A program made the position numbers and the translations under genes. From a virus, in the IMG/VR virus record IMGVR_UViG_3300011013_000096, positions 1 through 23,938 of that record: DNA of 23,938 nt. One strand, given 5' to 3'. Each line of letters begins with the position of its first letter. Within the stretch, counting starts at the first letter, position 1. Below are positions 1,100-17,151 of the stretch, piece after piece. The notes under the pieces were generated by a model, which was not told the origin of the DNA, searched no databases, and saw nothing but the letters and a program-made list of their open reading frames with translations.

Positions 1100-1110
1100 T
1101 CGTTCGGATT

Positions 1111-1677
1111 ATGAAAAAAATAAATAGAATGAAAAAATTAAGCACATTATTTAAAAAAGACCCTAACGATTTAGGGAGAGTAATTAATGAAGTAAACCCT
1201 GAAAACGAATGGGCTTTTACTGATGGGATACCAACACGTAAATTTGATGGCACAAGCTGTGCTATTATTAATGGCGAACTATACAAAAGGTTTGATTTAA
1301 AAAAAGGTAGAACTCTACCACCGAATGCTATATCTTGCCAAGAACCTGATAGTAAAAGTGGACACCATCCACATTGGGTAAAATGTGATAGAGAAGATAA
1401 AAGTAATAAGTGGCATTTTGTAGGCTTTGACTCTTTAGAAAATAAGGAGGATGGTACTTATGAGCTTTGTGGTAAAAAAGTACAAGGAAACCCTGAAAAT
1501 ATTGAAGGTCATCAATTAATTAAGCACGGTTCAGAAAGATTAAGTTTAGAAGTTGATTCTTTTGAATACATAAAGAAATACTTAACTGAAAACGATATTG
1601 AAGGCATTGTATTTCATCATAGAAATGATGATAGAATGTGTAAGATTAGAAAATCTGATTTTGGGATACGTAGGTAG
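1111..1677 (+). CDS. RNA ligase, RLIG1/DUF5565 type
   Basis: 188 aa with the ordered nucleotidyltransferase motifs of ATP-dependent RNA ligases. Motif I is KFDGTS with the predicted AMP-accepting Lys44, motif Ia is YKRFDLKKG (58-66), the III/IIIa-like block is GTYELCGKKVQGNPE (115-129) with Glu118, motif IV is IEGIVFHH (163-170) with Glu164, and motif V is MCKIRK (176-181). The family (eukaryotic RLIG1/C12orf29 and phage relatives) joins 5'-phosphate and 3'-OH RNA ends through an enzyme-AMP intermediate. In a phage this fits repair of tRNA cut by host anticodon nucleases. No partner kinase/phosphatase gene is visible. The gene stands alone, ending 8 nt before the first AAC/GTT palindrome, and may be the first unit of the cassette array. 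The motif order gives high confidence; the biological role is inference. Confidence 0.85.
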   Translation: MKKINRMKKLSTLFKKDPNDLGRVINEVNPENEWAFTDGIPTRKFDGTSCAIINGELYKRFDLKKGRTLPPNAISCQEPDSKSGHHPHWVKCDREDKSNKWHFVGFDSLENKEDGTYELCGKKVQGNPENIEGHQLIKHGSERLSLEVDSFEYIKKYLTENDIEGIVFHHRNDDRMCKIRKSDFGIRR

Positions 1678-1684
1678 TATTAAT

Positions 1685-1752
1685 GCTAACGCTAAATATA
1701 TTAAGCGTGGGAATAAGGAACGAATGAGCATGATTTATATATAATGTTATGC
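1685..1752 (+). repeat. attC-like palindromic junction S1
   Basis: Between the RNA ligase and XRE genes. AAC (1688-1690, in GCTAACG) is followed by 5 nt, a stem ATATAT plus AA, a loop of about 25 nt, the return stem TT plus ATATAT, 3 nt (AAT) and GTT (1746-1748, in GTTATGC). This is the same geometry as S2, S4, S5 and S6. The A/T-rich stem is weaker evidence alone than the agreement in layout. GTTATGCTTA to the right is matched inverted at the far end of the XRE gene. Confidence 0.6.
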
Positions 1753-1754
1753 TT

Positions 1755-1787
1755 ATTTTTTTATCTCAGAAATATTTATTACCTTTG
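1755..1787 (+). promoter_or_regulatory. Putative Bacteroidota-type promoter of the XRE gene
   Basis: TACCTTTG at 1780-1787 fits the Bacteroidota -7 box TAnnTTTG. A T-rich run (about 1755-1762) lies about 19 nt upstream, where the -33 box is expected but is imperfect. Transcription would start near 1793, ahead of ATG 1809. This argues against the alternative in-frame ATG at 1749, which would put the promoter inside the gene. Confidence 0.5.
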
Positions 1788-1808
1788 GTTAAATTAAAAT
1801 ACAAAATT

Positions 1809-2096
1809 ATGAACATAGGACAAGCTATAAGAACGCTAAGAAAAAATGAATTAATGAATCAAGAAGAGTTTGCGTCAAGTGTAGGTATAACACAATCTTA
1901 TTTATCATTAATTGAAAAAGGGCACAAAAAACCAAGTTTAGAAGTGTTACAACAAATGGCAGATATTTTAAATACTCCGTTGCCTGTTCTTTTTTGGTTT
2001 GGAATAGAAAGGGAAGATGTAGACGAAAAAAAGCAATACGCTTACGACACTTTAAAGCCCTCTATTGACAATTTGATTAATGAGGTTTTCAATTAA
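1809..2096 (+). CDS. XRE-family helix-turn-helix regulator
   Basis: 95 aa. Residues 5-60 form a Cro/C1-type HTH: IGQAIRTLRK, then MNQEEFASSVGITQSYLSLIEKG with the recognition helix near residues 27-36, then PSLEVLQQMADIL. The typical role is sequence-specific DNA binding as a dimer and transcriptional repression. The tail (61-95) has an aromatic segment (LFWFG) and an acidic helix that could dimerise. I chose ATG 1809, after ACAAAATT, because the domain begins there and a promoter box lies just upstream; the frame is open back to 1749. The gene sits alone between S1 and S2 as a single-gene cassette, with no obvious partner such as a toxin, so its target is unknown. Confidence 0.85.
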   Translation: MNIGQAIRTLRKNELMNQEEFASSVGITQSYLSLIEKGHKKPSLEVLQQMADILNTPLPVLFWFGIEREDVDEKKQYAYDTLKPSIDNLINEVFN

Positions 2097-2156
2097 GCAT
2101 AACGCATTGTGTATGGTGCGTATGCCGATAGGCTATGCAATATACACGTTGTTAGC
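2097..2156 (+). repeat. attC-like palindromic junction S2
   Basis: GCATAACG at the left edge, where AAC is 2101-2103. Then 5 nt (GCATT), a stem GTGTAT, further pairing of GCGTATGCC with GGCTATGC around a tight tip (GCCGATAGGC), the return stem ATACAC, 3 nt (GTT) and GTT 2151-2153 within GTTAGC. It is the best folded of the set and lies between the XRE and beta-helix genes. The left arm pairs with the start of the XRE cassette and the right arm with the end of the beta-helix cassette. Confidence 0.75.
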
Positions 2157-2192
2157 TACTGCGATTTATTAACTATAAAATTAAATATAAAT

Positions 2193-2792
2193 ATGATTAC
2201 AAGTATATCAAAAGAATTAAACAGAATTGAAATCCCATTTTTTAATGGAGAAATAAGTATGCTATCATTTGATTTAAGTGACTTAACTACTTTACCAAAT
2301 GAATTTAGAGAAACAGCAAAAGAAATGGTCAAGAGCCTACCTAACAAAGTAGGTGAAGCGTTTTTAACTGTACATGGAAAGTTTGTAAAAAAGTCAAAAA
2401 CTTTAAGACGTGGAGCAGCACATATTGATGGAAACTATTTAAAAGAAGTTGCTTCTTGGGGTTCTGGTGGTGGAAACGGTTGGAAAGTTGGTGAAAATGG
2501 AATGAAACTAACAAGTAAAGAACACGCTTTATCTTATGAGAATCAAAAAGGAGGCATGCTGATAGCATCAAATTACTCTGCTTGTAAAGGGTGGAACGGG
2601 GTGTTTGATGATAAAGCTGGAATTGGAGGTGATTGTTCTCACTTAAAATTAGATGAAGGTTTTATGCTTGAAGCAAACAAGGTTTATTACGGAAACTCAC
2701 AATTTGTACACGAAAGTTTGCCAGTTGATAAAGATGTGCATAGAATTATGTACAGAATCACTCTTCCTATAAACCACGAATGTAAGTTGTAG
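2193..2792 (+). CDS. Probable double-stranded beta-helix (Fe(II)/2-oxoglutarate-type) protein
   Basis: 199 aa from ATG 2193, which follows the A-rich leader TTAAATATAAAT; the frame is open back to 2109, but that part overlaps junction S2. An HxD pair (AHIDG, His77 and Asp79) is followed about 95 residues later by a second histidine (FVHES, His173) and Arg184/Arg188 in a strand-like segment (HRIMYRITLP). This order, HxD...H...R, is how Fe(II)/2OG oxygenases bind iron and 2-oxoglutarate. A Gly-rich stretch (91-95) and many polar turns lie between. The substrate cannot be told; base, nucleotide or protein hydroxylation are all open. It could instead be a metal-free cupin. It forms a single-gene cassette between S2 and S3. 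Confidence 0.5.
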   Translation: MITSISKELNRIEIPFFNGEISMLSFDLSDLTTLPNEFRETAKEMVKSLPNKVGEAFLTVHGKFVKKSKTLRRGAAHIDGNYLKEVASWGSGGGNGWKVGENGMKLTSKEHALSYENQKGGMLIASNYSACKGWNGVFDDKAGIGGDCSHLKLDEGFMLEANKVYYGNSQFVHESLPVDKDVHRIMYRITLPINHECKL

Positions 2793-2839
2793 CTAACGGT
2801 TTGGCTAAACTCCGTTTCCTTTAAATACGGAGAACAACG
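2793..2839 (+). repeat. Degenerate attC-like junction S3
   Basis: It begins CTAACGG (AAC 2795-2797) directly after the beta-helix stop. A perfect 6-bp stem CTCCGT (2810-2815) / ACGGAG (2827-2832) closes a loop of 11 nt, followed by AACAACG where the other sites have GTT. The left box matches its own cassette's start exactly over 9 nt, but the right box is not recognisable, so this junction seems altered or assembled differently. Confidence 0.5.
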
Positions 2840-2857: not shown

Positions 2858-3061
2858 ATGAGCGAAGAAACTAAGACTGTAAACAAGCAAGGCAATGGAG
2901 ATTTAGCTGTTGTTATCAAACGTGACTTAGGCAATCATTTAGCTGAAGTAATAAAAGAGTGTAGTAAAGGTATGAATCAATTAGAAACTAGTTCAAGAGA
3001 TTGGACTTGGCTGGCAAGTAAAAAGACATTAGCAGAAAGTATATTAATTCAATTCTGTTAG
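2858..3061 (+). CDS. 67-aa hypothetical protein
   Basis: ATG 2858 after AATAATAGAAAAAT, stop TAG 3059-3061. The product is soluble and likely helical in residues 15-40 (LAVVIKRDLGNHLAEVIKEC), with a Trp-rich stretch (RDWTWLASKK, 47-56) and two cysteines. No family recognised. It is the one unit of the array whose 5' boundary lacks the expected GTT arm matching its 3' arm (TTTGCTAAC, 3067-3075). Cassette membership is inferred from its position between S3 and S4. Confidence 0.6.
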   Translation: MSEETKTVNKQGNGDLAVVIKRDLGNHLAEVIKECSKGMNQLETSSRDWTWLASKKTLAESILIQFC

Positions 3062-3069
3062 TCATGTTT

Positions 3070-3120
3070 GCTAACGCTTAGTGTAAAATGGCGTTTTAAT
3101 GCATTTTAAACATTGTTGTA
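3070..3120 (+). repeat. attC-like palindromic junction S4
   Basis: GCTAACG (AAC 3073-3075), 5 nt, a stem GTGTAAAATG (3081-3090) paired with CATTTTAAAC (3102-3111) with one mismatch, a loop of 11 nt, 3 nt (ATT) and GTT 3115-3117. It lies in the 78-nt gap between the 67-aa and 80-aa genes and has the shared AAC/5/stem/3/GTT layout. The stem sequence is unrelated to those of the other sites. Confidence 0.75.
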
Positions 3121-3139
3121 AATCTTTTAAATACGAATT

Positions 3140-3382: not shown

Positions 3383-3387
3383 TTGTT

Positions 3388-3487
3388 TATAACGCCAAAG
3401 TATATGGTTTTGTAAGCCATAGCAGAAATTTACAAGTTAAAAACGAATATTAATTAGGCTTATAAACTATATACATTGTTGTGTGTA
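3388..3487 (+). repeat. attC-like palindromic junction S5 (long arm)
   Basis: AAC 3391-3393 in TAACGCC, 6 nt (GCCAAA), then an arm GTATATGGTTTTGTAAGCC (3400-3418) whose inverted partner GGCTTATAAACTATATAC (3457-3474) matches it with few mismatches. The loop is 38 nt, and 3 nt (ATT) precede GTT 3478-3480. It has the longest stem in the array. It separates the 80-aa gene from the 69-aa gene. Confidence 0.8.
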
Positions 3488-3518: not shown

Positions 3519-3728
3519 ATGAATATTTACGCAAAAGAAGGAACAAAAGTAAAATACACGGGGAATGGAGGTTATGACAGTCATAAAGAACACGCTAATA
3601 AGTATTTGAAAGTAGGCGAAACATATACTGTATTAAACACAAATGTAAGTGGATGGCATACTGACGTGTTCTTGAAAGAAATACCAAACCAATGTTTTAA
3701 CTCTGTTCATTTTGAAGAACTAACGTAG
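3519..3728 (+). CDS. 69-aa small SH3-like protein
   Basis: ATG 3519 after CTTTATTGAA; stop TAG 3726-3728. The sequence reads as a compact beta-barrel: GTKVKYTGNGGYD, a turn, LKVGETYTVLNTNV, then GWHTDVFLKEIP and FNSVHFEEL. Conserved-looking features are the L-x-x-G-E-x-Y-T-V strand, a GWHT turn and the F-N-S-V-x-F ending. They resemble small phage and host proteins with an SH3-like fold. The molecular role is unknown. The gene is a single-gene cassette flanked by near-perfect inverted 14-mers (3478-3491 and 3728-3741). Confidence 0.65.
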   Translation: MNIYAKEGTKVKYTGNGGYDSHKEHANKYLKVGETYTVLNTNVSGWHTDVFLKEIPNQCFNSVHFEELT

Positions 3729-3732
3729 TATT

Positions 3733-3790
3733 ACACACAACGTACTTGTATAAAAAATCGTTTTAATGTTTTTTATACGGTGTTATATAC
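3733..3790 (+). repeat. attC-like palindromic junction S6
   Basis: AAC 3739-3741 in CACACAACG, 6 nt (GTACTT), a perfect 10-bp stem GTATAAAAAA (3748-3757) / TTTTTTATAC (3769-3778), a loop of 11 nt, 3 nt (GGT) and GTT 3782-3784. It has the same geometry as S5 with a different stem. The left box belongs to the 69-aa cassette and the right box to the methyltransferase cassette. Confidence 0.8.
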
Positions 3791-3803
3791 AGTAATTAAA
3801 AAA

Positions 3804-3851: not shown

Positions 3852-4634
3852 ATGAGTAAAAATATAGAATTAGATAAATTTTACACACCAAAAGAAACGG
3901 CAAAGAAATGTATTGATATGTTTTGGCAAACATTTTTTGGTGTTACAGAAATAATTGAACCAAGTGCAGGAAATGGTGCTTTTAGTTTGCAAATACCAAA
4001 CTGTATATCTTACGATTTAGAACCTGAACACGAAAGCATAATTAAACAAGACTTTCTTAAATTAGATTTACCTTACAAGCAAGGCAGAGCATTTATAGGA
4101 AACCCACCTTTTGGTGATAGAAATAATTTAAGTAGAAGTTTTTATAAACACGCTTGTAAAATGGCTGATATGATAGGTTTTATTTTACCCATTAGCCAAT
4201 TAAATAATACAGATAGTTTATACTTGTTTGATTTGGTTAAAAGCGTTGATTTAGGTTCTTTAGAATATAGCGGAATGAAAGTACATTGTTGTTTTAATCT
4301 ATACCACAGACCCAAAGATGGTAAGTTAAATAAGAAGCCTAAATATAAAATAGACTGGATGAAAATACATAGAGATGACGAGAATGGTTATGAAAATATA
4401 AAATATGATTTATGTATTACGAGAAGAGGTAATTTAGGTAAAGAAAGATTTGAAAACATAAATAGTAGTTCTTTTAAAATAATATTAAAAGATAAATCAA
4501 TCATTGATTTTGTAAGGAATACTATAATCTCTTTTGATTGGCATAATTACAAAACACACCAATCAGCACCCTGTATGAGTAAAAATGATATTTACAGGCT
4601 TTTTTCACGCAAGAGTGAGTCGCTAATTTTTTAA
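3852..4634 (+). CDS. Adenine-type DNA methyltransferase (orphan)
   Basis: 260 aa. Motif I of the SAM pocket is EPSAGNGAF (36-44), an acidic residue after strand 2 is D55 (ISYDLEP), and the catalytic motif IV is NPPFG (84-88), the (D/N)PP(Y/F) form of amino-methyltransferases that modify adenine N6. The N-terminal FYTPKETAKKCID (10-22) is the usual TP-x-x-x-A lead-in of these enzymes. The C-terminal half is basic and probably recognises DNA. No restriction endonuclease lies beside it, so it is orphan. In a phage the likely use is protecting its own DNA or changing gene expression. RNA as the target cannot be excluded. ATG 3852 follows AAAATAAAAT. It is the last clear single-gene unit of the array, flanked by matching inverted 16-mers (3782-3797, 4633-4648). 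Confidence 0.8.
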   Translation: MSKNIELDKFYTPKETAKKCIDMFWQTFFGVTEIIEPSAGNGAFSLQIPNCISYDLEPEHESIIKQDFLKLDLPYKQGRAFIGNPPFGDRNNLSRSFYKHACKMADMIGFILPISQLNNTDSLYLFDLVKSVDLGSLEYSGMKVHCCFNLYHRPKDGKLNKKPKYKIDWMKIHRDDENGYENIKYDLCITRRGNLGKERFENINSSSFKIILKDKSIIDFVRNTIISFDWHNYKTHQSAPCMSKNDIYRLFSRKSESLIF

Positions 4635-4639
4635 TTATT

Positions 4640-4722
4640 GTATATAACAACAGAATAAATAACAGGTCTAATTCTGGTAAGGGTGTCGCACACAGAGGAA
4701 GTTCACCACCTGTTTTATAAAT
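4640..4722 (+). repeat. Irregular attC-like junction S7 at the end of the array
   Basis: The left box GTATATAAC (AAC 4646-4648) pairs with the start of the methyltransferase cassette. Inside, AACAGGT (4661-4667) pairs exactly with ACCTGTT (4708-4714) around a 40-nt loop that holds a smaller GTGTCGCACAC hairpin. The spacing from the box to the stem does not follow the 5-6/3 rule of the other sites, and no matching right-hand cassette end was found. Confidence 0.45.
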
Positions 4723-5113: not shown

Positions 5114-6409
5114 ATGGAAGTAAAGGAGAGCCGCCTCAAAAGGTGGTCGAAGGTATTCACAAGAAAGTCCAGCCTAACCCCTATGGGCTTGCAGCCGATT
5201 TCATCATCTGGATCGCTTGTTCGTTTCAGAATCCTTGAGCAATTCCTAAACTATTTCCAAACAGGAAAACACACGGCCGCCAACCTCATGAACACATACA
5301 CCAGCTCACCGCTGGTTTTTTTGGTTGTGAGCAAAATTTCACGAACATCCTCAGCAATTCCAAGGATTGCAGTAAATGAGCAAGACGAGCCAATCGAAAA
5401 CAGCAAGGTTCTGGAAGTTCTCAACAATCCAGGTGGTGGCTTGTCAATGCAGGAATTTTATGAGCAATCTGGTGAAAGCCTTTCTTTATCTGGAAATACA
5501 TTTATCAGATGGATTGAGGGAATTGGGGCAGGTCAAGCAATGGAGGTTTTACGACCTGGCTGCATCGAACCAAAGACCAACAACATTGGTGAAATAACTC
5601 ACTACATTTATGAGCTGCCAGGAGGTAGAAAAATAAGACTTGAGGCCGAGGATGTTCTACACATAAAGACAAGTAACATTGCTCAAAAAGAGAATACAAA
5701 CGAGTCATGGGGTGTTAGTCCGCTGCAGGCTCTTTGGATAGTTGTTAAAGCCTCAGACGAGAAATTCAATGCATCTGCGTCTATATTCAAAAACCGTGGG
5801 ATCATCGGAATACTGACAAACAAATCAGACATTCCAATGCTTCCGCCAGAAAGGGAAAGACTGCAAGATGAGCTTGACAAGGAGATAGGAGGAGCCGACA
5901 GGTTCAACAAAATAAAGATTTCAACAACTGACCTCTCGTACATCCAAACAGGGATGAGCCCATCCGATTTGAAGCTACTCGAGGGAATTGTTGCAGATCT
6001 CAGATTGATTTGCGCAGCATACGGGATGCCATCGGTATTGTTTAACGACAACGAGAAATCAACCTACAACAACATTTCTGAGGCTAAAAAATCAGCTTTC
6101 ACTGACGCTTATTTACCACTAGCTCACAAGCTAGACACAAAAATCGGTGCATTTGTTTCCGGCAAATTAGGTGTAAATGAGTTCATAAAGGCTGACCTCA
6201 CTCAAATTGAAGAAATTCGAAATACAACCAATTCGGTTATGAATGCGATCAACGCATTGGAGCCACGTGTTGCGTCAACTGTTATTGAAGTGATGCGCGT
6301 AAACGATGTTCTTGAAATGGTTGGCTTGGAAGCAATTACCGATGGCGGTGATGTCCAGGTCGCACAATTAAGATCACCACAACCGACTAACAACAACGAA
6401 GATGCCTAA
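5114..6409 (+). CDS. Phage portal protein, HK97 family
   Basis: 431 aa, a normal length for HK97-type portals, which form the dodecameric ring at the capsid vertex for DNA packaging and tail joining. Family landmarks are an N-terminal entry helix region with VFLVVSKISRTSSAIP (about 72-88), LNNPGGGLSMQEFYEQSGESLSLSGNTFI (about 105-133), LPGGRKIRLEAEDVLHIKT (about 168-187), WGVSPLQALW (about 200-209), FKNRGIIGIL, and the late TGMSPSDLKLLEG and YGMPSVLFNDNEKSTYNN blocks. Many portals of this family have the same G-x-S-P-L-x-A and N-x-S segments. The C-terminus is low in order. It is the first gene of the structural operon and overlaps the next gene by 8 nt. Confidence 0.9.
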   Translation: MEVKESRLKRWSKVFTRKSSLTPMGLQPISSSGSLVRFRILEQFLNYFQTGKHTAANLMNTYTSSPLVFLVVSKISRTSSAIPRIAVNEQDEPIENSKVLEVLNNPGGGLSMQEFYEQSGESLSLSGNTFIRWIEGIGAGQAMEVLRPGCIEPKTNNIGEITHYIYELPGGRKIRLEAEDVLHIKTSNIAQKENTNESWGVSPLQALWIVVKASDEKFNASASIFKNRGIIGILTNKSDIPMLPPERERLQDELDKEIGGADRFNKIKISTTDLSYIQTGMSPSDLKLLEGIVADLRLICAAYGMPSVLFNDNEKSTYNNISEAKKSAFTDAYLPLAHKLDTKIGAFVSGKLGVNEFIKADLTQIEEIRNTTNSVMNAINALEPRVASTVIEVMRVNDVLEMVGLEAITDGGDVQVAQLRSPQPTNNNEDA

Positions 6410-6542
6410 AGCACCAGTAAAAAAAACAACAGATCCAATTGATGACCTTGCCAAAAGGGTTGCAAAAATGCCTGATGGCGCAACAAAAAAGGCAATGCTT
6501 AAAGATTTGGAATTGAAGAAATCTAAATCAGTCACAAAATGA
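6402..6542 (+). CDS. 46-aa basic hypothetical protein
   Basis: ATG 6402 overlaps the end of the portal gene by 8 nt, and TGA 6540-6542 overlaps the protease ATG (6539) as ATGA. The product is lysine-rich and helical (begins MPKAPVKKTTDPIDDLAKRV, ends KKSKSVTK). Double overlap with two core genes is strong positional evidence of translation. It could be a small portal or scaffold accessory, but no family was recognised. Confidence 0.65.
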   Translation: MPKAPVKKTTDPIDDLAKRVAKMPDGATKKAMLKDLELKKSKSVTK

Positions 6543-7387
6543 GCGTAGTTTACAAATGTATCGAGCTACCTGGCAAGGAGTTCACAAGCAAACATGCTAT
6601 GTTCAAGGCCATCAAAGCCAAAAAGAACGAAATAATTGGCTTGAAAAAAGCCCAAGTGAAGCACTCCGACAGCCTTCGCTTTGTTGCCGTTCATGGTGTT
6701 GATGCCGAAAAGGGAATAAATGTTCCTGACGGTCACGTGATGGCCGTAATAAATACAACCAAGTACATGGACTCTCACAATGATGTACATTTAAACGGTA
6801 TTTGGAGCAAATCGGTTGAAGATCAACAAGGAAAGATTTATTTCATTGCAGACCACGACCTCAGTGTAAAATCGGTTATTGCATTTCCCAACGATGTTGA
6901 TATGATGGTCAAAAGTATCGACTGGAAGGATTTGGGAGCCGATTTTCCTGGCACCACTCAAGCCTTGATTTTTAAGGTGAGAAAAGAGGACATTGTACTC
7001 GATGCGGCTAAACATATCATTGAGGAAAAGTTGCCGATTGAGCACAGTGTAAGAATGCAATACGTGACAATAAAGTTTGCAGTAAACTCTGATAGTCCTG
7101 ATTTTGCAGAGGAAAAAAAAGAGTGGGATCACACCATTGAACTCGTTGCAAATAAGGATATAGCCATTGAGAATGGTTATTACTGGACTGTATCGGAGGC
7201 AAAAATATTCAAAGAGGGTAGCATGGTACTCGCTGGATCAAACGACGTGACACCGATGTTGTTGTCGTCAAAAAACATTGCGGAGCCGTCTGATGACACT
7301 TTGCACGCTGAGCCGTCTGCTGACACTCAGGAACCCCCAAAACCGAAAAGCTCGGAATTGGATTACATAACACAAAATCTTTATTAA
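6539..7387 (+). CDS. Prohead maturation protease, HK97-type (U35-like)
   Basis: 282 aa. It sits between portal and capsid genes, the usual place of the serine protease that trims the capsid delta domain. Candidate catalytic residues are His106 in FIADHDLS (102-109) and Ser170 in PIEHSVRMQYV (166-176), which stands where the family's S-x-G-F strand is found. The later WTVSEAKIFKEGSMVLAGSNDVTP (216-239) corresponds to the family's E-x-S-L-V-x-x-P-A segment. The Ser/His pairing is by position, not proof. The C-terminal tail (247-282) is low complexity with a repeated EPS(D/A)DT (DNA copies 7283-7300 and 7310-7327) and could be self-cleaved. It starts in an ATGA overlap with the 46-aa gene. Confidence 0.8.
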   Translation: MSVVYKCIELPGKEFTSKHAMFKAIKAKKNEIIGLKKAQVKHSDSLRFVAVHGVDAEKGINVPDGHVMAVINTTKYMDSHNDVHLNGIWSKSVEDQQGKIYFIADHDLSVKSVIAFPNDVDMMVKSIDWKDLGADFPGTTQALIFKVRKEDIVLDAAKHIIEEKLPIEHSVRMQYVTIKFAVNSDSPDFAEEKKEWDHTIELVANKDIAIENGYYWTVSEAKIFKEGSMVLAGSNDVTPMLLSSKNIAEPSDDTLHAEPSADTQEPPKPKSSELDYITQNLY

Positions 7388-7388
7388 A

Positions 7389-8654
7389 ATGAAGACTATT
7401 AAGCAATTTCTTGAGAGCAAAGACATTTCTCAAGAGGATTTCGATGCAATGTCAGCCGAACAAAAAGCGGCATTGTACAACGAACTCAGCAAATTGAATG
7501 CAACGGCTTTCGCTGATTTGCAAGCAAAAGCTGACAAAGTTGAAGCGGTAGAGGCTGCGCTTAAAATAATGGCCGACAATCAAGCTGAGTCGCTGAAAAG
7601 CATCATGCTCACGATTGAAAAGCAAGGGCTTGCTCTTGCCAAGGTTACTAACAAAGAAACGGGCGAGTCTCGTTTAACTGTTAAGAGCCAGATTTCGGAG
7701 AACATGGCTACTATCAAGAACTTAGCCAACAAAGTTGATTCAACTGATGTTGAAATCAAAGCACTCACAAATGTTGCGTCTGTTGACTCTAACACTTGGG
7801 CTTACAACTTACCAGATGTAGGACAGTTAGGTACTCGACAAATCAACATGGAGGAGCTTTTCCCTTCAATCACGATTGGTGGGGTAAACATCAACAAGGC
7901 AATCACTTATTGGGATTGGGATGAGGCTACAATCGCAAGAGCTGCCGACATGGTTGCAGAGGGCGATGTTTTCCCTGAGTCAACCGCAAAATGGAAGCAA
8001 TACACGTTGCCGATCCAAAAAGTTGGTGACACTATCCCTGTGACCGAGGAGTTCATGGAAGATGAGAGCATGTTCGCATCTGAGCTTGAGCTTTTCCTTG
8101 CAACTAACGTTGCATTGAAAGTTGACGATCAAATCGTCAATGGTGATGGAACTGGTAACAACCTTTTAGGTCTTAACGCCTCAATCCCTGCTTACGTACC
8201 TGTTGCGTCTGGAATTCTTGACGCCAGTATTTACGATCTAATCGTGAAGTTGATCGAGGATATTACCACTCTTAGAGGGTCTAAGTATCGACCAAATTTT
8301 GTTGTGATGAACATCGCGGACATCAACAAAATGAAGTTGAAGAAAGACGCGAATAACAACTACGTAATGCCTCCTTTCGTTTCGAGAGATGGAAACGTTG
8401 TTGCTGGAATCACAGTTGTTGAGAACAATGCGCAAACCGCAAACACTCTTGCAATTGGAGATCAGAGATTCGCGAAACTTTACTCTGCGGCTGGGTTCAC
8501 ACTATCGAGAGGTACTGTTGATGCTCAATTCACGTCTGACATGATGACGCTGAAAGTACGTAGACGTATGGCTTTCTTAATCAGAGAAGTTGATAAAACT
8601 GGTTTCCGTCAGGTTACTAGTATTTCTGCAGCTCTTACAACGTTAGCATCGTAA
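7389..8654 (+). CDS. Major capsid protein, HK97 fold
   Basis: 421 aa, starting 1 nt after the protease stop. Residues 1-110 are helical and charged (AEQKAALYNELSKLN, LQAKADKVEAVEAALK), the expected scaffold or delta domain removed by the protease. The mature part begins somewhere after about residue 90-130. Typical HK97-fold segments follow: EGDVFPESTAKW (about 194-205), the strand-turn LPIQKVGDTIPVTEEFMEDESMF (about 209-231), the spine-helix region ELELFLATNVALKVDDQIVNGDGTGNNLLGL, a central FVVMNIADINKMKLKKD helix and the C-terminal VRRRMAFLIREVDKTGFRQVTS. It assembles the icosahedral shell. Cross-linking residues cannot be judged from sequence alone. Confidence 0.92.
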   Translation: MKTIKQFLESKDISQEDFDAMSAEQKAALYNELSKLNATAFADLQAKADKVEAVEAALKIMADNQAESLKSIMLTIEKQGLALAKVTNKETGESRLTVKSQISENMATIKNLANKVDSTDVEIKALTNVASVDSNTWAYNLPDVGQLGTRQINMEELFPSITIGGVNINKAITYWDWDEATIARAADMVAEGDVFPESTAKWKQYTLPIQKVGDTIPVTEEFMEDESMFASELELFLATNVALKVDDQIVNGDGTGNNLLGLNASIPAYVPVASGILDASIYDLIVKLIEDITTLRGSKYRPNFVVMNIADINKMKLKKDANNNYVMPPFVSRDGNVVAGITVVENNAQTANTLAIGDQRFAKLYSAAGFTLSRGTVDAQFTSDMMTLKVRRRMAFLIREVDKTGFRQVTSISAALTTLAS

Positions 8655-8655
8655 G

Positions 8656-8919
8656 ATGAGAACGGTTAAGTTCATAAAGGATTTTGCAACAAAGAAGCAA
8701 GGAGAGTCGTGGAAATGCGACTCTCAACTTTCCTCGCAATTGGTTAGAACTGACAAGGTTGCTGTTTACGATGATGAAGCCCCAAAAGCTGACAAGCCTG
8801 CAAAGGCCAGCGAAGGAGCCAAACCAAAGAAAAGAGCACCTAAGAAAGAAGAACCAAAGGCCGTTGAGAAATCCGAGGAAAAACCAACAGAATCAAAAGA
8901 AAAACCAAGCGATAAATAA
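8656..8919 (+). CDS. 87-aa Lys/Glu/Pro-rich small phage protein
   Basis: ATG 8656 lies 1 nt after the capsid stop. The first 38 residues (VKFIKDFATKKQGESW, then SSQLVRTDKVAVYD) look like the short barrel-like domain of small proteins often encoded just after phage capsids. Residues 43-87 are disordered and repetitive in Lys, Glu, Pro and Ala. It may be a virion-associated or capsid-decorating protein; that is inferred from position. A second frame (8684-8944) overlaps but reads as a shadow of the repetitive DNA. Confidence 0.6.
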   Translation: MRTVKFIKDFATKKQGESWKCDSQLSSQLVRTDKVAVYDDEAPKADKPAKASEGAKPKKRAPKKEEPKAVEKSEEKPTESKEKPSDK

Positions 8920-8922
8920 ATC

Positions 8923-9438
8923 ATGTCAAGATTTGCACAAATAACAGACTTCAAAGTTGAGCCTTTCAAGATACCGTTGAACCCAGTTCAAAGCGCTGAC
9001 TTGCAGGCAATAATTGATGAGGTTGAGGATTATTACATCCCACGATTGTTTGGCAAGGATCTGGCTGACTTATTTATATTGGATTGGGATGCTTTACCCG
9101 TTGGAGCAATTGACCCGAGATTCGTTTTTATTTACAATCCTTTTACCTACCAAGATGGTTCGTTCTTTCTTCAAAGCGAAGGGATTAAAAAAATGATCCA
9201 AGGCATTGTTTATTACAAATACTTACGTGATCGCTTTACAAGAGTAGCCACCACCGGTGGAAAGAAAACTCAAAGCGCAAACGCGAGTAATGTGAGCGGC
9301 ACGCATCACGACATAAACAGGAGGTACAACTCTTCAATCGAAACGTTTCAAGTACTTCAAACATACATGAGCTGTATCGATTCTGGTTTATACCCTGAAT
9401 ATGACGGAATCCATGAACGGTTTAACCATATTTTTTAG
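8923..9438 (+). CDS. Head-tail connector (adaptor) candidate
   Basis: 171 aa. It begins MSRFAQITDFKVEPFKIPLNP and is largely helical, with DLQAIIDEVEDYYIPRLFGKDLADLF (26-51), a Ser/Gly turn, SEGIKKMIQGIVYYKYLRD (84-102) and a polar loop TTGGKKTQSANASN. This order (long first helix, YL/RLFG turn, YF/YY-helix, then an N/S-rich loop) is common to the adaptor-like proteins of Bacteroidota phages, encoded just after the capsid gene. The assignment rests mainly on gene order. The stop TAG 9436-9438 touches the next start. Confidence 0.6.
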   Translation: MSRFAQITDFKVEPFKIPLNPVQSADLQAIIDEVEDYYIPRLFGKDLADLFILDWDALPVGAIDPRFVFIYNPFTYQDGSFFLQSEGIKKMIQGIVYYKYLRDRFTRVATTGGKKTQSANASNVSGTHHDINRRYNSSIETFQVLQTYMSCIDSGLYPEYDGIHERFNHIF

Positions 9439-9440
9439 TG

Positions 9441-10136
9441 ATGGCAAACTTAGTTGACGTTATGAAATACATTCTTGGGCAACTTGACTACACTGTCAAG
9501 GTGAAAAGCATTACGCTCCCAAATGTTTTCGTGTGCGAAACAACTAAGCATTTGACCGTTGGTAATATCATAACTGATGGCGGTGGCCTGGAATACCTGG
9601 TAACCGCTATTGATGTAAACAATTATGTTGAGTTAACACCGACAAATGGAAACACGGTTGATTTTGACAGTGATGTCATGAATTTACCGCCAGTACATTT
9701 GCAACACGGAACCCCTCAAATGGTGAACAATGAGTATCTTGATGCTGAGGTCGATACAGTGGACAAAACCCCATTTATTTGGGTGTACGAGAACACTGAG
9801 AGCGATTTACCAGCAAGAGACTCATCACTTGAGGCCACTTTTGACGTTCGCCTTTTCCTTTTGGCATGGGCAAACGAACCTGAGTGGGTTAATGACCAAC
9901 ACAATGACCTAGCTGTGAAGCCAATGCAGAACCTTTCACAACAGATAATTGACGTTATAAACGCTGATTATTCGTTCAAGAGGGTAAACGGTGGTCGAAC
10001 ACGTCCGAGGTCAAATTTTGGTGTTTATGTCACAAACAATGGCAATGAAAAGGACATCATTGATGAAGACCTGACAGGGGTGGAACTGCGTTTCAATCTC
10101 GAGGCATACGACCTGAGCGGTTGTAATTGCAATTAA
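9441..10136 (+). CDS. Neck or tail-terminator candidate
   Basis: 231 aa from ATG 9441; an in-frame GTG at 9438 overlapping the previous TAG is the alternative start. The N-terminus is helical (VDVMKYILGQLDY), followed by beta-rich repeats (TVGNIITDGGGLEYLVTAIDVNNYVELT) and a helical section (LAVKPMQNLSQQIIDVINADYSF) before a C-terminal strand ending CNCN. Position between the connector and tail tube genes is where head-completion or tail-terminator proteins are encoded. No family recognised, and a neck or tail-joining role is inference. Confidence 0.55.
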   Translation: MANLVDVMKYILGQLDYTVKVKSITLPNVFVCETTKHLTVGNIITDGGGLEYLVTAIDVNNYVELTPTNGNTVDFDSDVMNLPPVHLQHGTPQMVNNEYLDAEVDTVDKTPFIWVYENTESDLPARDSSLEATFDVRLFLLAWANEPEWVNDQHNDLAVKPMQNLSQQIIDVINADYSFKRVNGGRTRPRSNFGVYVTNNGNEKDIIDEDLTGVELRFNLEAYDLSGCNCN

Positions 10137-10168
10137 CTGAATAATTAAACGCTATAAAACAAAATAAA

Positions 10169-11128
10169 ATGAGCGGAATTGAATGTAACTGCGCAAACCC
10201 AACCTTTGGGAACACTGGTTTGCCAGGATGCTCAACAGAGCAAAAGGCTATGGCCTTTCCAGTCCTCATGCCTCGGTATGGTTCGGACGGAACAAGAAAC
10301 ACAATTGATGTGACTAGCACAACGCTAGGAGCTGACTTACTTGCAATGCTTAATGCTGCAGATCCTCGTGATCGAATCTACCCATTGCCAAGAGTTGAAA
10401 ACGCATCTTTCACAAGAACTGACACTCAGTATGATGAGGCGCCAAGTGGAAGAAAGTACAGACTTGATGGCGTTGGAGGTGTTCGAACGTGGGCAATGGA
10501 GCTTTGGGCTAAATCGGCTGTGTCTGGAATGCACCGAGAATTGAAGAAATACGGATGCGTTGAGCTTGATGCTTTTTACGTGGATATTTCTGGTTCAATC
10601 TTCGGAATTAAGGACAATCCAACTGACACTATCATGAAGGGTTACGAGCTTGCAACAGAAACGTTTGACGTTTTTGCTGACTACGCTACCGACACGACTG
10701 TCAGAAAACTCATGATTTCATGGGATTTGGACAGCCAAGTTTGTGAGGAGAACGCTTACGCGATCACCGGCACTGAGCTAGGATATAAAGCCACAACTTT
10801 GAGCGGCCTATTGACTGCAGACCAAGTTGTGACTGAGCCGGCTGATGGAACCGTGAACCAAGTCGTTCGAACAACTTACGGAACAGCGGTAACGCTTGAC
10901 CCTGTTGTTGGATTAGACACGAGTGGTGCGGTATTGGCGTTGTACAATGTTACTCAAGATGTTGCAATGACAGCGCCCACTGGTTGGGCTGCGGTTGCTG
11001 GTTCTGATGGAGAATACACTTTTGCATATTTAACGGCTGAGGCCACGACAAATGATGTGATTCGTGTATCTGTAAGCGGTGCGCCTGGGTACGATGTACA
11101 GGATGCAACGTTTGTTCACACTTTCTAA
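10169..11128 (+). CDS. Major tail (tube) protein candidate with Ig-like C-terminus
   Basis: 319 aa. Residues 1-200 form a beta-rich domain with the strong pattern PRVENASFTRTDTQYDEAPSGRKYRLDGVGGVRTWAMELWAKS, typical of tail-tube sheets, and several Cys near the N-terminus (CNCANPTFGNTGLPGC). Residues about 205-319 (LSGLLTADQVV... AVLALYNVTQDVAMTAPTGW... VIRVSVSGAPGYD) resemble an appended immunoglobulin-like domain, common on tail-tube proteins as a surface decoration. The gene has a 32-nt leader and stands after the neck genes. The MTP call is by position and beta pattern. Confidence 0.65.
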   Translation: MSGIECNCANPTFGNTGLPGCSTEQKAMAFPVLMPRYGSDGTRNTIDVTSTTLGADLLAMLNAADPRDRIYPLPRVENASFTRTDTQYDEAPSGRKYRLDGVGGVRTWAMELWAKSAVSGMHRELKKYGCVELDAFYVDISGSIFGIKDNPTDTIMKGYELATETFDVFADYATDTTVRKLMISWDLDSQVCEENAYAITGTELGYKATTLSGLLTADQVVTEPADGTVNQVVRTTYGTAVTLDPVVGLDTSGAVLALYNVTQDVAMTAPTGWAAVAGSDGEYTFAYLTAEATTNDVIRVSVSGAPGYDVQDATFVHTF

Positions 11129-11131
11129 TCA

Positions 11132-11377
11132 ATGGCAAAGTCAAAAGTCATTGAATTAGCTAGGCAAAAGTACGATGCCGATTGGTTGAGATCTGTACCT
11201 CTCAATAAGGCAATAAACGTGCTGAAAAACTGCCATGACAAAAACCAAGTCACCAACGCCTGGAAACAAGCGAACAGCCTTAGTGTAAGAAATTACAACA
11301 AGGCAGGCGAAAAGGTTGAAGCCAAGGCACCAGCTAAAAAAGCAAGGAAATCACCGACTAAAAAGTCGAGCAAATAG
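11132..11377 (+). CDS. 81-aa hypothetical protein with lysine-rich tail
   Basis: ATG 11132 follows the tail-tube stop after 3 nt. An N-terminal helical domain (KVIELARQKYDADWLRSVPLNKAINVLKN) and an HDKNQVTNAWKQAN helix are followed by a basic tail KAPAKKARKSPTKKSSK. Last gene of this transcript: a terminator starts 7 nt after its stop. It may be a small tail or assembly factor, or a DNA-binding protein because of the tail; not recognised. Confidence 0.6.
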   Translation: MAKSKVIELARQKYDADWLRSVPLNKAINVLKNCHDKNQVTNAWKQANSLSVRNYNKAGEKVEAKAPAKKARKSPTKKSSK

Positions 11378-11384
11378 TAAAATC

Positions 11385-11412
11385 AAGCCCCTCAATTGCG
11401 GGGGGCTTTTTT
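11385..11412 (+). terminator. Rho-independent terminator after the tail-tube gene set
   Basis: AAGCCCC (11385-11391) pairs with GGGGCTT (11402-11408) around a 10-nt loop, followed by a T-run (11407-11412). It ends the 5114-11377 transcript and lies just before the next gene at 11422, whose promoter is not obvious. Confidence 0.85.
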
Positions 11413-11421
11413 AACATCTAA

Positions 11422-12285
11422 ATGGATTATAGAGTCAAAGAGAATTACAAGGTTATCACTTTTCCAAAAGGATTTGAGGAGGAGGATCGTGGCGTGAAAG
11501 GATGCTGCACATGCAAAGAACTTGTTCTTGCCCATCCATCTGACTCAGAAACATTTAAAAACGATTGTACAGGCGTTTATTTAAAGCGATCAGATCCAGG
11601 TGATTTGGTTGCGATCACAATGGAGGACGCTAATGGTGCCACTATCACAAACCTCGGAACGGCCGCTATATTTCCAAACGACTCTGACACTGTTGGTTTT
11701 ATCTACGATTGGCAACAGATATTGAACGCAAACGGGATTGGGTGCTACACCATAAAGGTGAATTTCACAATTGCTGGCGTTACGAGTGGTTACACTCATG
11801 GGATTTATGAGTTGAGACAATTCTCAACAGAATCCTCAAAAGGAACCGTTCGAATAAAGAGCGCGTTCAACACATTTTACCAAAAATTATTGGTTGATTT
11901 CACGGACTCAAATTTTGTTGACTGCGTGAGATTTAACGGCTATTTCGGTGACCGTCAACCAAAGACCGAGATCAACAACATTGTAAGTAAAAACAGGCGA
12001 GTTGAGAAGTCAACAAGGGAGAACGTAAACAACTATTTCCTAAAAACAGACCCGTTGGACATTTGCATCACAAGGCAATTGGTTGACTTTCATTTCTTAA
12101 ACGAGGACGACTGTTTTGTGAGTGACTACAACTACCACAACCACGATTATTTGATACAAGACAAATCGGTTGAGCTTATTGATTCATCCGAGCTAGAATA
12201 CTTTAGAGGCAATAGACTTGCAAAGTTGGAGGCCACTTTTGGAGATAGGAATTTACTAGATAAAAACTTTTATAAAACAAGCTGA
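11422..12285 (+). CDS. Tail or baseplate structural protein candidate
   Basis: 287 aa. The N-terminal part carries CCTCKE (residues 28-33) and an otherwise polar segment; residues 45-140 form a beta-sandwich-like pattern (DPGDLVAITMEDANGATITNLG, YTIKVNFTIAGVTSGYTHGIYELRQF); the C-terminal half has the charged, Tyr/Asn-rich stretch YNYHNHDYLIQDKSVELIDS. Many Cys are spread through the protein. Its stop (TGA) overlaps the next start as TGATG, coupling it to the fibre-like genes. It comes first after the terminator. A baseplate or fibre-attachment role is inferred from context. Confidence 0.5.
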   Translation: MDYRVKENYKVITFPKGFEEEDRGVKGCCTCKELVLAHPSDSETFKNDCTGVYLKRSDPGDLVAITMEDANGATITNLGTAAIFPNDSDTVGFIYDWQQILNANGIGCYTIKVNFTIAGVTSGYTHGIYELRQFSTESSKGTVRIKSAFNTFYQKLLVDFTDSNFVDCVRFNGYFGDRQPKTEINNIVSKNRRVEKSTRENVNNYFLKTDPLDICITRQLVDFHFLNEDDCFVSDYNYHNHDYLIQDKSVELIDSSELEYFRGNRLAKLEATFGDRNLLDKNFYKTS

Positions 12286-13160
12286 TGTCATTCAAATTTG
12301 AAATAATTGAAAGCGCCCTTGTTATAACTGACACGAACACAGGAATTGTTGCTGAGGAGCACCCGAAAAGGGATATGTATTTCGACAACAAAAAACTTGT
12401 TCAGGATAGCATTGTCAAGATTTATGACACCAATGGCGTAAACGAAACGAGTTCGGGGGTTTTTGAGAAACCTCTTTCTGAGTGTCAAGACCCTAACGGC
12501 GTCACATTCACTGACGCAACCCTGCGGGATTTTGCTCGTGAGAACTTGGGAAAAACTAGCGGTGGAGGATCTGGAACGGGTTGGGACGGTCGAGTTGACC
12601 TATACGCCAATCTGCCTACCACCTTGTCAAATCCAGCAATAGGATCAATTTATTTAGTAGAACAACCCACTACCATACTTTTCGGTGCTTACAAAACACG
12701 GCAAAGCGGCCTTTATATAAAAGACCTTGACACCGGAAGTTTAAGCGATTGGCGAAAGTTAAACGTAAAAGTTAATTTCACAGACGCAGAATTTGCCCTG
12801 GTAAATGCTGCAGACAATTCAAAAAGGGCTAAAATTGATTTATCACTTTTAACAACTTCAACAACTTATACTTATCAACACCAGGGCAAAAATGGAATAA
12901 TTGCCCATTTATCAGATCTTAAACCAGATTTCAACGTTGATTTAGACGAATCGGAGGTTTCTGTTTCGAGAGTTTTTGCCGGGGGCAGAACCACTTTTAC
13001 GGTTACACATAGTCTGAACACTATCGATGTAAAACCTGTAGTTTTTAGACTATCGGACGGCAGAAATATCGGCTGGAGGATAGAAAGAACAGGAGTTAAC
13101 ACTGTTGATGTATCAAGAAACGGCAACATTGCAAACGGTTTATTTAGATTAGTAATATAA
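12285..13160 (+). CDS. Tail fibre or appendage protein candidate
   Basis: 291 aa. The N-terminal domain (1-90) has strands (FKFEIIESALVITDTNTGIVAEEHPKRD). A glycine-rich linker, TSGGGSGTG (about 91-98), leads into VDLYANLPTTLSNPAIGSIYLVEQPT and LYIKDLDTGSLSDWRKLN, a pattern common in phage tip and fibre proteins. The C-terminus (FTVTHSLNTIDVKPVVFRLSDGRNIGWR) is beta-rich. Linker plus terminal domains suit a modular adhesion protein. It overlaps the previous and next genes at their start and stop codons. Confidence 0.6.
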   Translation: MSFKFEIIESALVITDTNTGIVAEEHPKRDMYFDNKKLVQDSIVKIYDTNGVNETSSGVFEKPLSECQDPNGVTFTDATLRDFARENLGKTSGGGSGTGWDGRVDLYANLPTTLSNPAIGSIYLVEQPTTILFGAYKTRQSGLYIKDLDTGSLSDWRKLNVKVNFTDAEFALVNAADNSKRAKIDLSLLTTSTTYTYQHQGKNGIIAHLSDLKPDFNVDLDESEVSVSRVFAGGRTTFTVTHSLNTIDVKPVVFRLSDGRNIGWRIERTGVNTVDVSRNGNIANGLFRLVI

Positions 13161-14617
13161 TGGAAATACAAGACATCATACAAGGGTTAACGCAAACAGA
13201 GATTAATGCTATTACCTCGCCAGATGAGCGCAGTTTAATAGTTAATACCACTCTAAATCAAGCTGTCATATATGTTAACGGTACTTTCAAACAGTCAAGT
13301 TTTACTAATTCTGATGACATACCAGAAGGAACCACTAATAAGTATATTACAACTTCTGATCTTTCGCAAATAACAACAAACGCAAATGATATATCTTCCT
13401 TACAAACAGGCAAAGAGGACGCTTTCACAAAGAACACAGCATTTAATAAAGATTTTGGAACAAGCACAGGTGAGGTTTTGCCGGGTAATACTCCAACGAT
13501 AACACCAACGCAAGCAAGCAATATAACCACAAATAACTCAAAAGTCTCCTTTCCAGAAGCCCCTATTGATGGAAAGCAGTACGCAAGAAAAGATAGTTCA
13601 TGGGAAGAGGTAGCAGCAAGTGGAACCTCAGAGCCTTTACCTATAATAATTTTGACAAGTACTGACGATACGCAATTGTTTAATAGGTCTACGCCTTACA
13701 CTATAGAGTGGGATTCAGAAAAAGAAAAAGATTCTGCGTTTGCACATAGCAACAATACAAACAATAGTATTATAGAAGTAAATGATACTAGCACTTATTT
13801 ATTTGCAGGCAATATTAGGATATTTAACGGAACCGACCAAAGGACACAGCCTACTGTAAAATTAATAATCGATGGGACTTTACAGGATTGGAATCTGTCA
13901 AGTGGATATATTAGAAATGCTGGTAATGCTTCTGATTTTTGGACTTTAGATTTTAGTTTTCAACCAGTCAAACTAAATTCTGGTCAAGAAGTAGAGCTTC
14001 AAATATCACACGAAGCATCAAACCCATCTACATGGGATTCAACATTTATAGGCTCAGAGTCTTATTTTTGGGGCATAAAACTACAAGGTGTAAAAGGAGA
14101 AAAAGGAGATACTGGTAGTGGTTCAAATATAGTACTTGAAAAAGACGGCTTAACAGTTGGAACTGTAACAGAAACTATTGATATTTTAGGGGGTGTCCCT
14201 GTTGTTGATGAGGGTGGAAATGTTACAAGTATTGAGATAGGAAACTACGCTCATGCTACAGGAATTACTCAGATGCCCAGTAGTCAAATAACAAACTACA
14301 CCGAAACAGGAGGAGGTTCAGTAGATATTGATAACTACGATTTAGGAACGTCAAATGTTCATTTTATTAATCCAGGGTCGCATGATAGAGATTTTACTGG
14401 TATGGTTGCTCCTCCTGCTGGTGTTAATAGAACAGTTACTATAATAAACTCAGGGACTGATAAAAAACTAAAGTTCAAAGATAACGACTCTTCAAGCACG
14501 GCAGCAAATAGAATGCTATTAGCAGATGAAAGTGATTTTGATTTACCACAAGGAGGGAGTTTGCAAATGATTTATAACCACAACGTTAATCGCTGGACAA
14601 CATATTCATATTATTAG
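13160..14617 (+). CDS. Tail fibre protein with collagen-like segment
   Basis: 485 aa. An N-terminal anchor-like domain (about 1-55) with a Thr/Asn/Ser-rich stalk is followed by a beta domain (about 155-300), a short collagen-like run GVKGEKGDTGSG (310-321) and a C-terminal domain (about 385-485) with DFTGMVAPPAGVNRTVTIINSG and TAANRMLLADESDFDLPQGGSLQMIY, as in terminal receptor-binding parts of other fibres. From its start onward the DNA becomes clearly more AT-rich than the preceding structural genes, as expected for exchangeable host-range genes. The cognate host receptor cannot be inferred. Confidence 0.75.
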   Translation: MEIQDIIQGLTQTEINAITSPDERSLIVNTTLNQAVIYVNGTFKQSSFTNSDDIPEGTTNKYITTSDLSQITTNANDISSLQTGKEDAFTKNTAFNKDFGTSTGEVLPGNTPTITPTQASNITTNNSKVSFPEAPIDGKQYARKDSSWEEVAASGTSEPLPIIILTSTDDTQLFNRSTPYTIEWDSEKEKDSAFAHSNNTNNSIIEVNDTSTYLFAGNIRIFNGTDQRTQPTVKLIIDGTLQDWNLSSGYIRNAGNASDFWTLDFSFQPVKLNSGQEVELQISHEASNPSTWDSTFIGSESYFWGIKLQGVKGEKGDTGSGSNIVLEKDGLTVGTVTETIDILGGVPVVDEGGNVTSIEIGNYAHATGITQMPSSQITNYTETGGGSVDIDNYDLGTSNVHFINPGSHDRDFTGMVAPPAGVNRTVTIINSGTDKKLKFKDNDSSSTAANRMLLADESDFDLPQGGSLQMIYNHNVNRWTTYSYY

Positions 14618-14619
14618 AA

Positions 14620-15030
14620 ATGGAGAAGAAATTTTATAAAGAAGATAACGAGCCAATACCATCTATAGTTTATAGTGAAACTCAACCTGTAGGTTTTAGC
14701 GAGATAACAGACCAAACAGAATTGTCGGAACTTTATTTAAAACTAAACAACAAGAAAAGTAATTGGGGTAAAGATTATATTTCATTATTTAAAGTTGAAA
14801 ACTTTGGAGAAAAGTATAGAGATGGAACTTTGACCGATTCTAATATATACTATTTGTATCAAAAACTATCCTTGTTGATAGTGGTATTAGAAGATGGTAA
14901 TCTTGATTGCGCTTTATTTATTCTTAATAATGAAATAAACACTATAACGCAAACTGATATTGACAATGGATATACCCAGGAAATACACGACAAAATAATA
15001 CAAGACCTAAATAACTATTTAACTCAATAA
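14620..15030 (+). CDS. 136-aa fibre-associated hypothetical protein
   Basis: ATG 14620 is 2 nt after the fibre stop. An N-terminal segment (residues 18-34, VYSETQPVGFSEITDQT) precedes a helical part ending IQDLNNYLTQ. Small genes right after a fibre gene often encode fibre-assembly factors, chaperones or terminal caps. The sequence alone is not diagnostic. Confidence 0.55.
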   Translation: MEKKFYKEDNEPIPSIVYSETQPVGFSEITDQTELSELYLKLNNKKSNWGKDYISLFKVENFGEKYRDGTLTDSNIYYLYQKLSLLIVVLEDGNLDCALFILNNEINTITQTDIDNGYTQEIHDKIIQDLNNYLTQ

Positions 15031-15032
15031 TT

Positions 15033-15191
15033 ATGAAAAAGAAAGAAGAACAAGAAATCGTAAAAGAAATTTTAAAACTAGCGGATAAATTGGGAGATAA
15101 AGCTAATATCTCGCAGGATAAAGATTCTCTAAGAATAACTGTTGGTGGAGATTGGACGAATGGACATCCTAGCAAGCGACCGAGGAAGTGA
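15033..15191 (+). CDS. 52-aa charged small protein
   Basis: ATG 15033, TGA 15189-15191. The protein starts MKKKEEQEIVKEILKLADKL, an amphipathic charged helix, and ends in a polar tail HPSKRPRK. It lies 2 nt after the fibre-associated gene and its stop overlaps the next gene's GTG start (GTGA). No family recognised. Tight packing on both sides supports it. Confidence 0.55.
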   Translation: MKKKEEQEIVKEILKLADKLGDKANISQDKDSLRITVGGDWTNGHPSKRPRK

Positions 15192-15814
15192 TTATTTTTT
15201 ACTTTTTGTATTACATTGGTATGAGGATAATCCCCGAAGCCATAGACAGCGACCATTGTTATTGGCTCATGGATTCAATACTCATGATCTCAATTGCCGT
15301 TTTCATATTTCTGAAATCAAAGAAAAACATAATAAATCTATTTTTTACTGCAGCTTGTATTGTTTCTTTTTGTTACGATTTATTCGATTATATGTATATT
15401 GTCACAATGGGAGGCTTTAGTACGGATGGAATCAGGGTGGCCTTTTGCATTTCAATATCTTTGGTTGTTTATTGCCTGATTTTTAGAAAAAGATACGAAT
15501 GGAACAAATTAAAAAGTGAAAATTACAACAAAAATAAAATCCAAGCTATATACTCCAAGCCTTCAACGACAATAACGTTGTTAGGTGCGGCCACTTCTTT
15601 TAGCCCAAAGTGCAGTGTAAGATATAGTTATGACGGTAAAATGATTCGATTTAAAAAGGGTTATCCTACCCCAATAATGACAAACTTTGTTGTAAAGGAC
15701 ACAGATATTATAAAAACCACGGATATTGATCCTTCGTTATTTTATACTAGATTTGAAGAAATAAAGGATAAAAAATACAATTTTTTAACCTTTAATTGTA
15801 GAAAACTGTTTTAA
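15188..15814 (+). CDS. 208-aa membrane protein with C-terminal globular domain
   Basis: GTG 15188 overlaps the previous stop (GTGA). An in-frame ATG at 15221 (residue 12) is the alternative. Residues 1-98 contain three or four hydrophobic segments (about 2-12, 27-42, 47-72, 80-98). The C-terminal 110 residues are soluble (TITLLGAATSFSPKCSVRYSYD, then IRFKKGYPTP, then YNFLTFNCRKLF). The terminal FNCRK resembles the NC signature at the end of permuted papain-like NlpC/LRAT-type domains, but the catalytic His is not clear. It may be a host-surface or lysis protein; uncertain. Confidence 0.5.
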   Translation: MIIFYFLYYIGMRIIPEAIDSDHCYWLMDSILMISIAVFIFLKSKKNIINLFFTAACIVSFCYDLFDYMYIVTMGGFSTDGIRVAFCISISLVVYCLIFRKRYEWNKLKSENYNKNKIQAIYSKPSTTITLLGAATSFSPKCSVRYSYDGKMIRFKKGYPTPIMTNFVVKDTDIIKTTDIDPSLFYTRFEEIKDKKYNFLTFNCRKLF

Positions 15815-16213: not shown

Positions 16214-16226
16214 AATTCACACTAAA

Positions 16227-16305: not shown

Positions 16306-16308
16306 ACA

Positions 16309-17066: not shown

Positions 17067-17104
17067 ATTGCAGTCACAATAAGTTTAACTAAAATTAGTA
17101 GTGG

Positions 17105-17143: not shown

Positions 17144-17151
17144 GTTTCACC

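Follow-up and report, generated by a model that had tools for sequence, protein, structure and literature searches.

We consider it quite probable that the phage studied here carries a minimal stand-alone RNA ligase of the RLIG1 type, likely engaged in tRNA resealing, which was obtained as an integron-type gene cassette. The window, meaning the whole 23,938-nt stretch of DNA that was analysed, is a 23.9-kb fragment of an incomplete phage genome. The ligase heads an integron-type attC cluster of seven sites (one degenerate) at 1681-4649 and has been transferred between unrelated phages. Computation here established the ligase's family, its active site and predicted fold and the purifying selection on it, as well as the attC array, the borders of the cassettes and inter-phage transfer. 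The features of the window are as follows.

1101..1110, + strand: 5′ junction of the ligase cassette, CGTTCGGATT, with GTT core and CGGATTAT
1129..1677, + strand: RLIG1-type ATP-dependent RNA ligase CDS, 182 aa (Pfam, PHROG, PDB, AlphaFold, conservation)
1681..1755, + strand: attC-like site behind the ligase, R″ TAATGCTAAC at 1681-1690 and R′ GTTATGCTTA at 1746-1755
1809..2096, + strand: cassette CDS, XRE/HTH_3 regulator
2094..2160, + strand: attC-like site 2
2193..2792, + strand: cassette CDS, phrog_8970 (PHROG match), unknown function
2788..2832, + strand: degenerate attC-like site 3, R″ TGTAGCTAAC and hairpin, without clear R′
2858..3061, + strand: cassette CDS, 67 aa, no family
3066..3124, + strand: attC-like site 4, CGTTTTAATG loop
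3140..3382, + strand: cassette CDS, 80 aa, no family
3384..3487, + strand: attC-like site 5, long form
3519..3728, + strand: cassette CDS, phrog_8472 (PHROG match), unknown function
3732..3791, + strand: attC-like site 6, CGTTTTAATG loop
3852..4634, + strand: cassette CDS, DNA methyltransferase-like (PHROG 5172/799, PADLOC MTase_II)
4621..4649, + strand: R″ end of the last cassette and end of the array, 29-nt inverted repeat with 3781-3809 (93%)
5114-6409, + strand: portal, one of the phage structural genes at 5114..22256
7389-8654, + strand: major head protein, in the same structural region
18060-22256, + strand: tape measure, in the same structural region

The ligase gene and its family

The ligase ORF was confirmed at 1111-1677 and encodes 188 aa if read from the ATG at 1111. 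The true start is probably the ATG at 1129, giving 182 aa, because the relative L002, at 93% identity, lacks an upstream ATG and the relatives share a common N-terminus, which reads MKK(I/L)(S/T)TLF in nearly all of them. Adding 6 to a residue number of the 182-aa protein gives the 188-aa number of the first-pass annotation. An Rfam search of the 23.9-kb window gave no match.

The first-pass annotation had assigned the protein to the RLIG1/DUF5565 type and proposed a profile search, a structural overlay and conservation of Lys44 as checks, and all three agreed with the assignment. The ligase scored 28.1 bits with the Pfam RLIG1 profile (PF17720), above the cut-off of 25, PHROG 14301 'RNA ligase' matched at 2.8e-70, and a sequence search of the PDB retrieved the Yasminevirus RLIG1 crystal structure. 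Comparison with two close homologues gave a dN/dS of ~0.07-0.09, indicating purifying selection. The PHROG and Pfam matches and the dN/dS show that the match to the family is not due to chance. The AlphaFold model of the ligase (pLDDT 95.1, with 45 relatives as input) has the ATP-grasp RNA ligase fold. When it was submitted to Foldseek, the best PDB folds were all Yasminevirus RLIG1 (E 1e-11, TM 0.79); this held for every one of the 12 matches at E <0.001, and a Naegleria RNA ligase and then, weakly, T4 Rnl1 followed.

In the 182-aa numbering the motifs are K38-x-D40-G41 (I), R54 (Ia), E112 (III), H133 (IIIa), E158 (IV) and K172 (V). The active site of Yasminevirus RLIG1 consists of K73, D75, R89, E174, H195, E240 and K253 (PMC11494293), and all seven residues have counterparts in the ligase, namely K38, D40, R54, E112, H133, E158 and K172. 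Residues K44 (the nucleotidyl lysine), R60, E118, H139, E164 and K178 of the 188-aa numbering were conserved in 152/152 relatives and D46 in 151/152. Lys44, Glu118, Glu164 and Lys178, listed earlier as nucleotidyltransferase motifs, thus stood as motifs I, III, IV and V; Arg180 and Lys181 from the same list were not invariant, and Arg60 (Ia) and His139 (IIIa) had been overlooked. A protein without ligase activity, either a catalytic relic or an AMP-binding protein, is very improbable. It is short and its nucleotidyltransferase core is not joined to any RNA-binding domain, as that reading would have it, but every active-site residue is intact under strong purifying selection, and Yasminevirus RLIG1, which also has no RNA-binding domain of the T4 Rnl1 kind, is active (PMC11494293).

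Relatives of the ligase were found in at least 337 IMG/VR stretches, 80 of which were retained, and in 78 bacterial or MAG contigs, 20 phage records and 13 plasmid records. The homologue in Cellulophaga phage phi10:1 bears the RefSeq name 'RNA ligase', so the family is known. The ligase is an ordinary family member and is not new, since phage and bacterial RLIG1 homologues, ligation of tRNA halves and the tRNA-gene neighbourhood have already been published.

The attC array and transfer of the ligase cassette

The ligase had been described as heading an array of cassettes, and integron-type attC sites do come after it; the integron type of the cassettes and the cassette nature of the ligase itself were absent from that description. 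Behind each of the six ORFs downstream of the ligase stands an imperfect inverted repeat, or one half-site, whose cores are AAC and GTT; this is the anatomy of attC sites. With at least two attC sites, ORFs between them and a single orientation, the array is a CALIN, an attC cluster that lacks an integrase. Site 5 was 80% identical over ~105 bp to a site in the ligase-bearing phage contig L098.

It is unlikely, in our estimate, that the ligase spread by ordinary homologous or illegitimate phage recombination and that the attC-like sequences are incidental hairpins at gene ends. Such an explanation is at odds with the pairing of the half-sites. In the five cassettes with both half-sites, R′ and R″ of the same cassette were complementary at 10, 9, 7, 10 and 10 of 10 positions, and this own-partner pairing was the best among 2,520 assignments (the ligase cassette, whose R′ is lost in the window, was left out). 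A covariance model, R1, was built from seven attC sites, with 1682-1755 outside the training set. It found further untrained attC sites, including the one at 1682-1755 behind the ligase (27.4 bits, E 0.002), and no attC at E<1 in mycobacteriophage Thyatira and the tRNA-context controls. Its matches in phi10:1 were AT-rich and weak and were not counted. Single-strand folding was convincing for the attC of L002 (z -4.8), and two window sites folded no better than shuffles. In a published assay, recombination with attI1 took place at phage attC sites, one of them from Polaribacter phage P12002L (PMC9892861), and this too argues against incidental hairpins.

At least 120 IMG/VR stretches (viral_contigs, L190-L269) contain the attC type TAACG-N-CGTTTTAATG-N-TTGTTA, up to five times each, and nearly all of the matches listed are 45-48 nt long; this recurrence also speaks against ordinary recombination. 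Viral contigs may hold far more integron-type arrays than the 17 CALINs published so far.

Nucleotide comparison placed the borders of the ligase cassette. The window was 94.3% identical to L018 over 1102-1695 and 91.8% identical to L002 over 1102-1691 and had almost nothing else in common with either; structural proteins of the three phages were 20-39% identical or unmatched, and their other proteins were at most 40% identical or had no counterpart. In both comparisons identity ended at the cassette borders, namely the GTT core on one side and a position shortly after R″ on the other, which again speaks against ordinary recombination. The ligase has been transferred between unrelated phages, and its carriage in a row of swappable integron-type cassettes explains nearly identical copies in otherwise unrelated phages. 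L018 (G010 contig 64) is labelled as a Flavobacteriales MAG, but its structural genes mark it as phage DNA.

Upstream of the ligase in L002 and in L018 lies a complete attC whose end is GTTAGCATTA, and the stop codon in both is followed by TAATGCTAAC/T; R′ and R″ of the ligase cassette match exactly at 10/10 positions in L002 and 9/10 in L018. The window junction reads GTT-CGGATTAT where L018 and L002 have GTT-AGCATTAGTA-CGGATTAT (GTTAGCATTAGTACGGATTAT), so that the window copy lacks some 10 bp of R′. A second version of the ligase cassette was 91-93% identical at the DNA level among L022, L110 and L112. Intact ligase cassettes were found at seven loci, and the 3′ half only at about six more, the window included. 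On a quick tree, the only one on which this distribution was read, intact and 3′-half-only cassettes lay on several branches, and well-supported forks forced at least three label changes.

The reading as ordinary recombination draws on the missing intact 5′ half-site of the window copy, on phi10:1 and many other relatives that have the ligase without flanking attC, and on the fact that no integron integrase was found. The TIGR02249 profile had no match in the 23.9-kb window, a fragment record, and two recombinases considered as IntI (L177 9774-10604 and L176 1586-2644) were rejected, as they scored below the cut-off and on inspection had no IntI-specific extra domain. The first of these is a Xer-like tyrosine recombinase located between the ligase cassette and the terminase of another phage contig. 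We favour acquisition of the ligase by the phage as an integron-type gene cassette. It heads an attC array without an integrase, unrelated Bacteroidota phages hold intact cassettes with matching 5′ and 3′ half-sites, and a portion of the 5′ half-site is missing from the window copy.

The motif CGTTCG(T/G)A(A/T)T was located at 475-484, 819-828 and 1101-1110, just before three consecutive ORFs, and had no other exact copy in the window. Three copies were found where 0.17 were expected, and none of 100 shuffles reached three. This suggests a leader element or a recombination scar.

Proposed function and healing partners

By family biochemistry, the ligase would adenylylate itself on Lys38 (Lys44 in the 188-aa numbering), pass the AMP to an RNA 5′-phosphate and then seal it to a 3′-OH. 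Most likely it would reseal tRNAs that are cleaved in their anticodon loop while the phage infects its host. A counter-defence role through tRNA repair is likely by analogy with the biochemistry of the family (PMC11494293) and its gene neighbourhood (PMC10364804), and a counter-immunity role of viral RLIG1 has already been predicted (PMC11494293). PADLOC had no defence-model match for the ligase. For this copy we infer activity, tRNA substrate, counter-defence role and recombination by a host integrase.

The first-pass annotation saw no kinase or phosphatase beside the ligase, and none was present among the ten nearby ORFs tested in the 23.9-kb fragment. The PNK3P profile had no match in 11 records examined, and AAA_33 (Pnk-type kinase), PNK3P and RtcB were all missing from the complete ligase-bearing phages phi10:1 and Thyatira. 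The AAA_33 profile exceeded its cut-off in jumbo-phage contigs and, by a narrow margin, in a single further contig, and nowhere else in those records. A phage-encoded kinase-phosphatase partner of the T4 Pnk/Rnl1 type was thus not found for the window, whose genome is incomplete. The absence of healing enzymes in phi10:1 and Thyatira is consistent with stand-alone action of the ligase. A kinase-free ligase acts directly only on 5′-P/3′-OH ends, and damage leaving a 2′,3′-cyclic phosphate would need help from the host because no healing enzyme was found; the ends may be healed by a host enzyme, or else the breaks may be ligatable as they are.

A general role in RNA maintenance, in which nicks in phage mRNA or host rRNA are repaired during infection and tRNA-cutting defences are not the target, seems to us rather unlikely. 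In favour of it, a link between human Rlig1 and the integrity of 28S rRNA has been described for oxidative stress (PMC13244148), and the tree holds many bacterial chromosomal copies, some adjoining an RNase T-type exonuclease (in Flavobacterium) or an Rnl2-type ligase (in Chryseobacterium). Against this, the ligase stands directly behind tRNA arrays in many relatives, and, in earlier work that expressed phage and bacterial homologues, several homologues ligated tRNA halves (PMC11494293). Same-strand tRNA genes precede the ligase in many Flavobacterium relatives, three Flavobacteriales-type contigs, one cyanobacterium and some phages. When relatives were thinned to 100 representatives, a tRNA gene lay within 500 nt upstream of the ligase in 9/93 and downstream in 1/96. 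Over-representation of tRNA genes beside the RLIG1 family was published in 2023 (PMC10364804). A search of the 23.9-kb window for tRNA genes found none.

Several neighbourhoods were observed in passing. Co-directional tRNA arrays, some with tRNAs of unreadable anticodon, lie directly upstream of RLIG1 in Flavobacterium chromosomes, and an array of ~31 tRNA genes surrounds it in a Phormidium contig (loci L024-L033, L064, L087 and L091). In Chryseobacterium (L050 1924-3582) the RLIG1 gene comes directly after a T4 Rnl2-type ligase, so that two different RNA ligases adjoin. In Thyatira (L013 8065-9027) a queuine tRNA-ribosyltransferase is encoded seven genes downstream of the RLIG1 homologue.

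It is possible, if doubtful, that RLIG1 forms a shared integron-cassette pool for Bacteroidota phages, a one-gene, kinase-free counter-defence by tRNA repair against nucleases leaving 5′-P/3′-OH ends.

Comparison with known systems

Phage attC arrays are already known (PMC9892861), and the combination of an RLIG1 ligase with a phage attC array was not found in the literature searched. The only new element is the packaging of an RLIG1 ligase in a phage attC array. A biochemically characterised RNA-repair family is now seen as a mobile cassette moving between unrelated phages, which points to integron cassettes as a route of gene exchange among phages. The ligases, 92-96% identical, make a natural set with which to ask what kinds of tRNA damage a phage ligase without a kinase can answer.

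The ligase shares its fold and motifs I, Ia, III, IIIa, IV and V with RLIG1/C12orf29 (PF17720), Yasminevirus RLIG1 (9c6l/9c6m) and 'C. phage' RLIG1 (PMC11494293), as well as the minimal architecture without an RNA-binding domain. It is smaller, with 182 aa against ~277-324 in the RLIG1/C12orf29 family, and ~25% identical to the solved Yasminevirus RLIG1 structure in the Foldseek alignment. Gene gp057 of phi10:1 (PHROG 14301), likewise a phage gene, is 70% identical over 96% of the query; unlike the window ligase, it has no flanking attC half-sites and its neighbours are different. The T4 Rnl1/Pnk tRNA repair system belongs to the same nucleotidyltransferase superfamily and has a like sealing step, whereas the window ligase has no C-terminal RNA-binding domain and no Pnk partner was found for it; the relation to T4 Rnl1 is remote (Foldseek E 0.2). 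Like phage CALINs such as that of Polaribacter phage P12002L (PMC9892861), the window is from a Bacteroidota phage and has an IntI-free attC array that includes DNA methyltransferase cargo. No RNA ligase is mentioned in the main text on phage CALINs (PMC9892861), whereas the cargo of the window array includes one.
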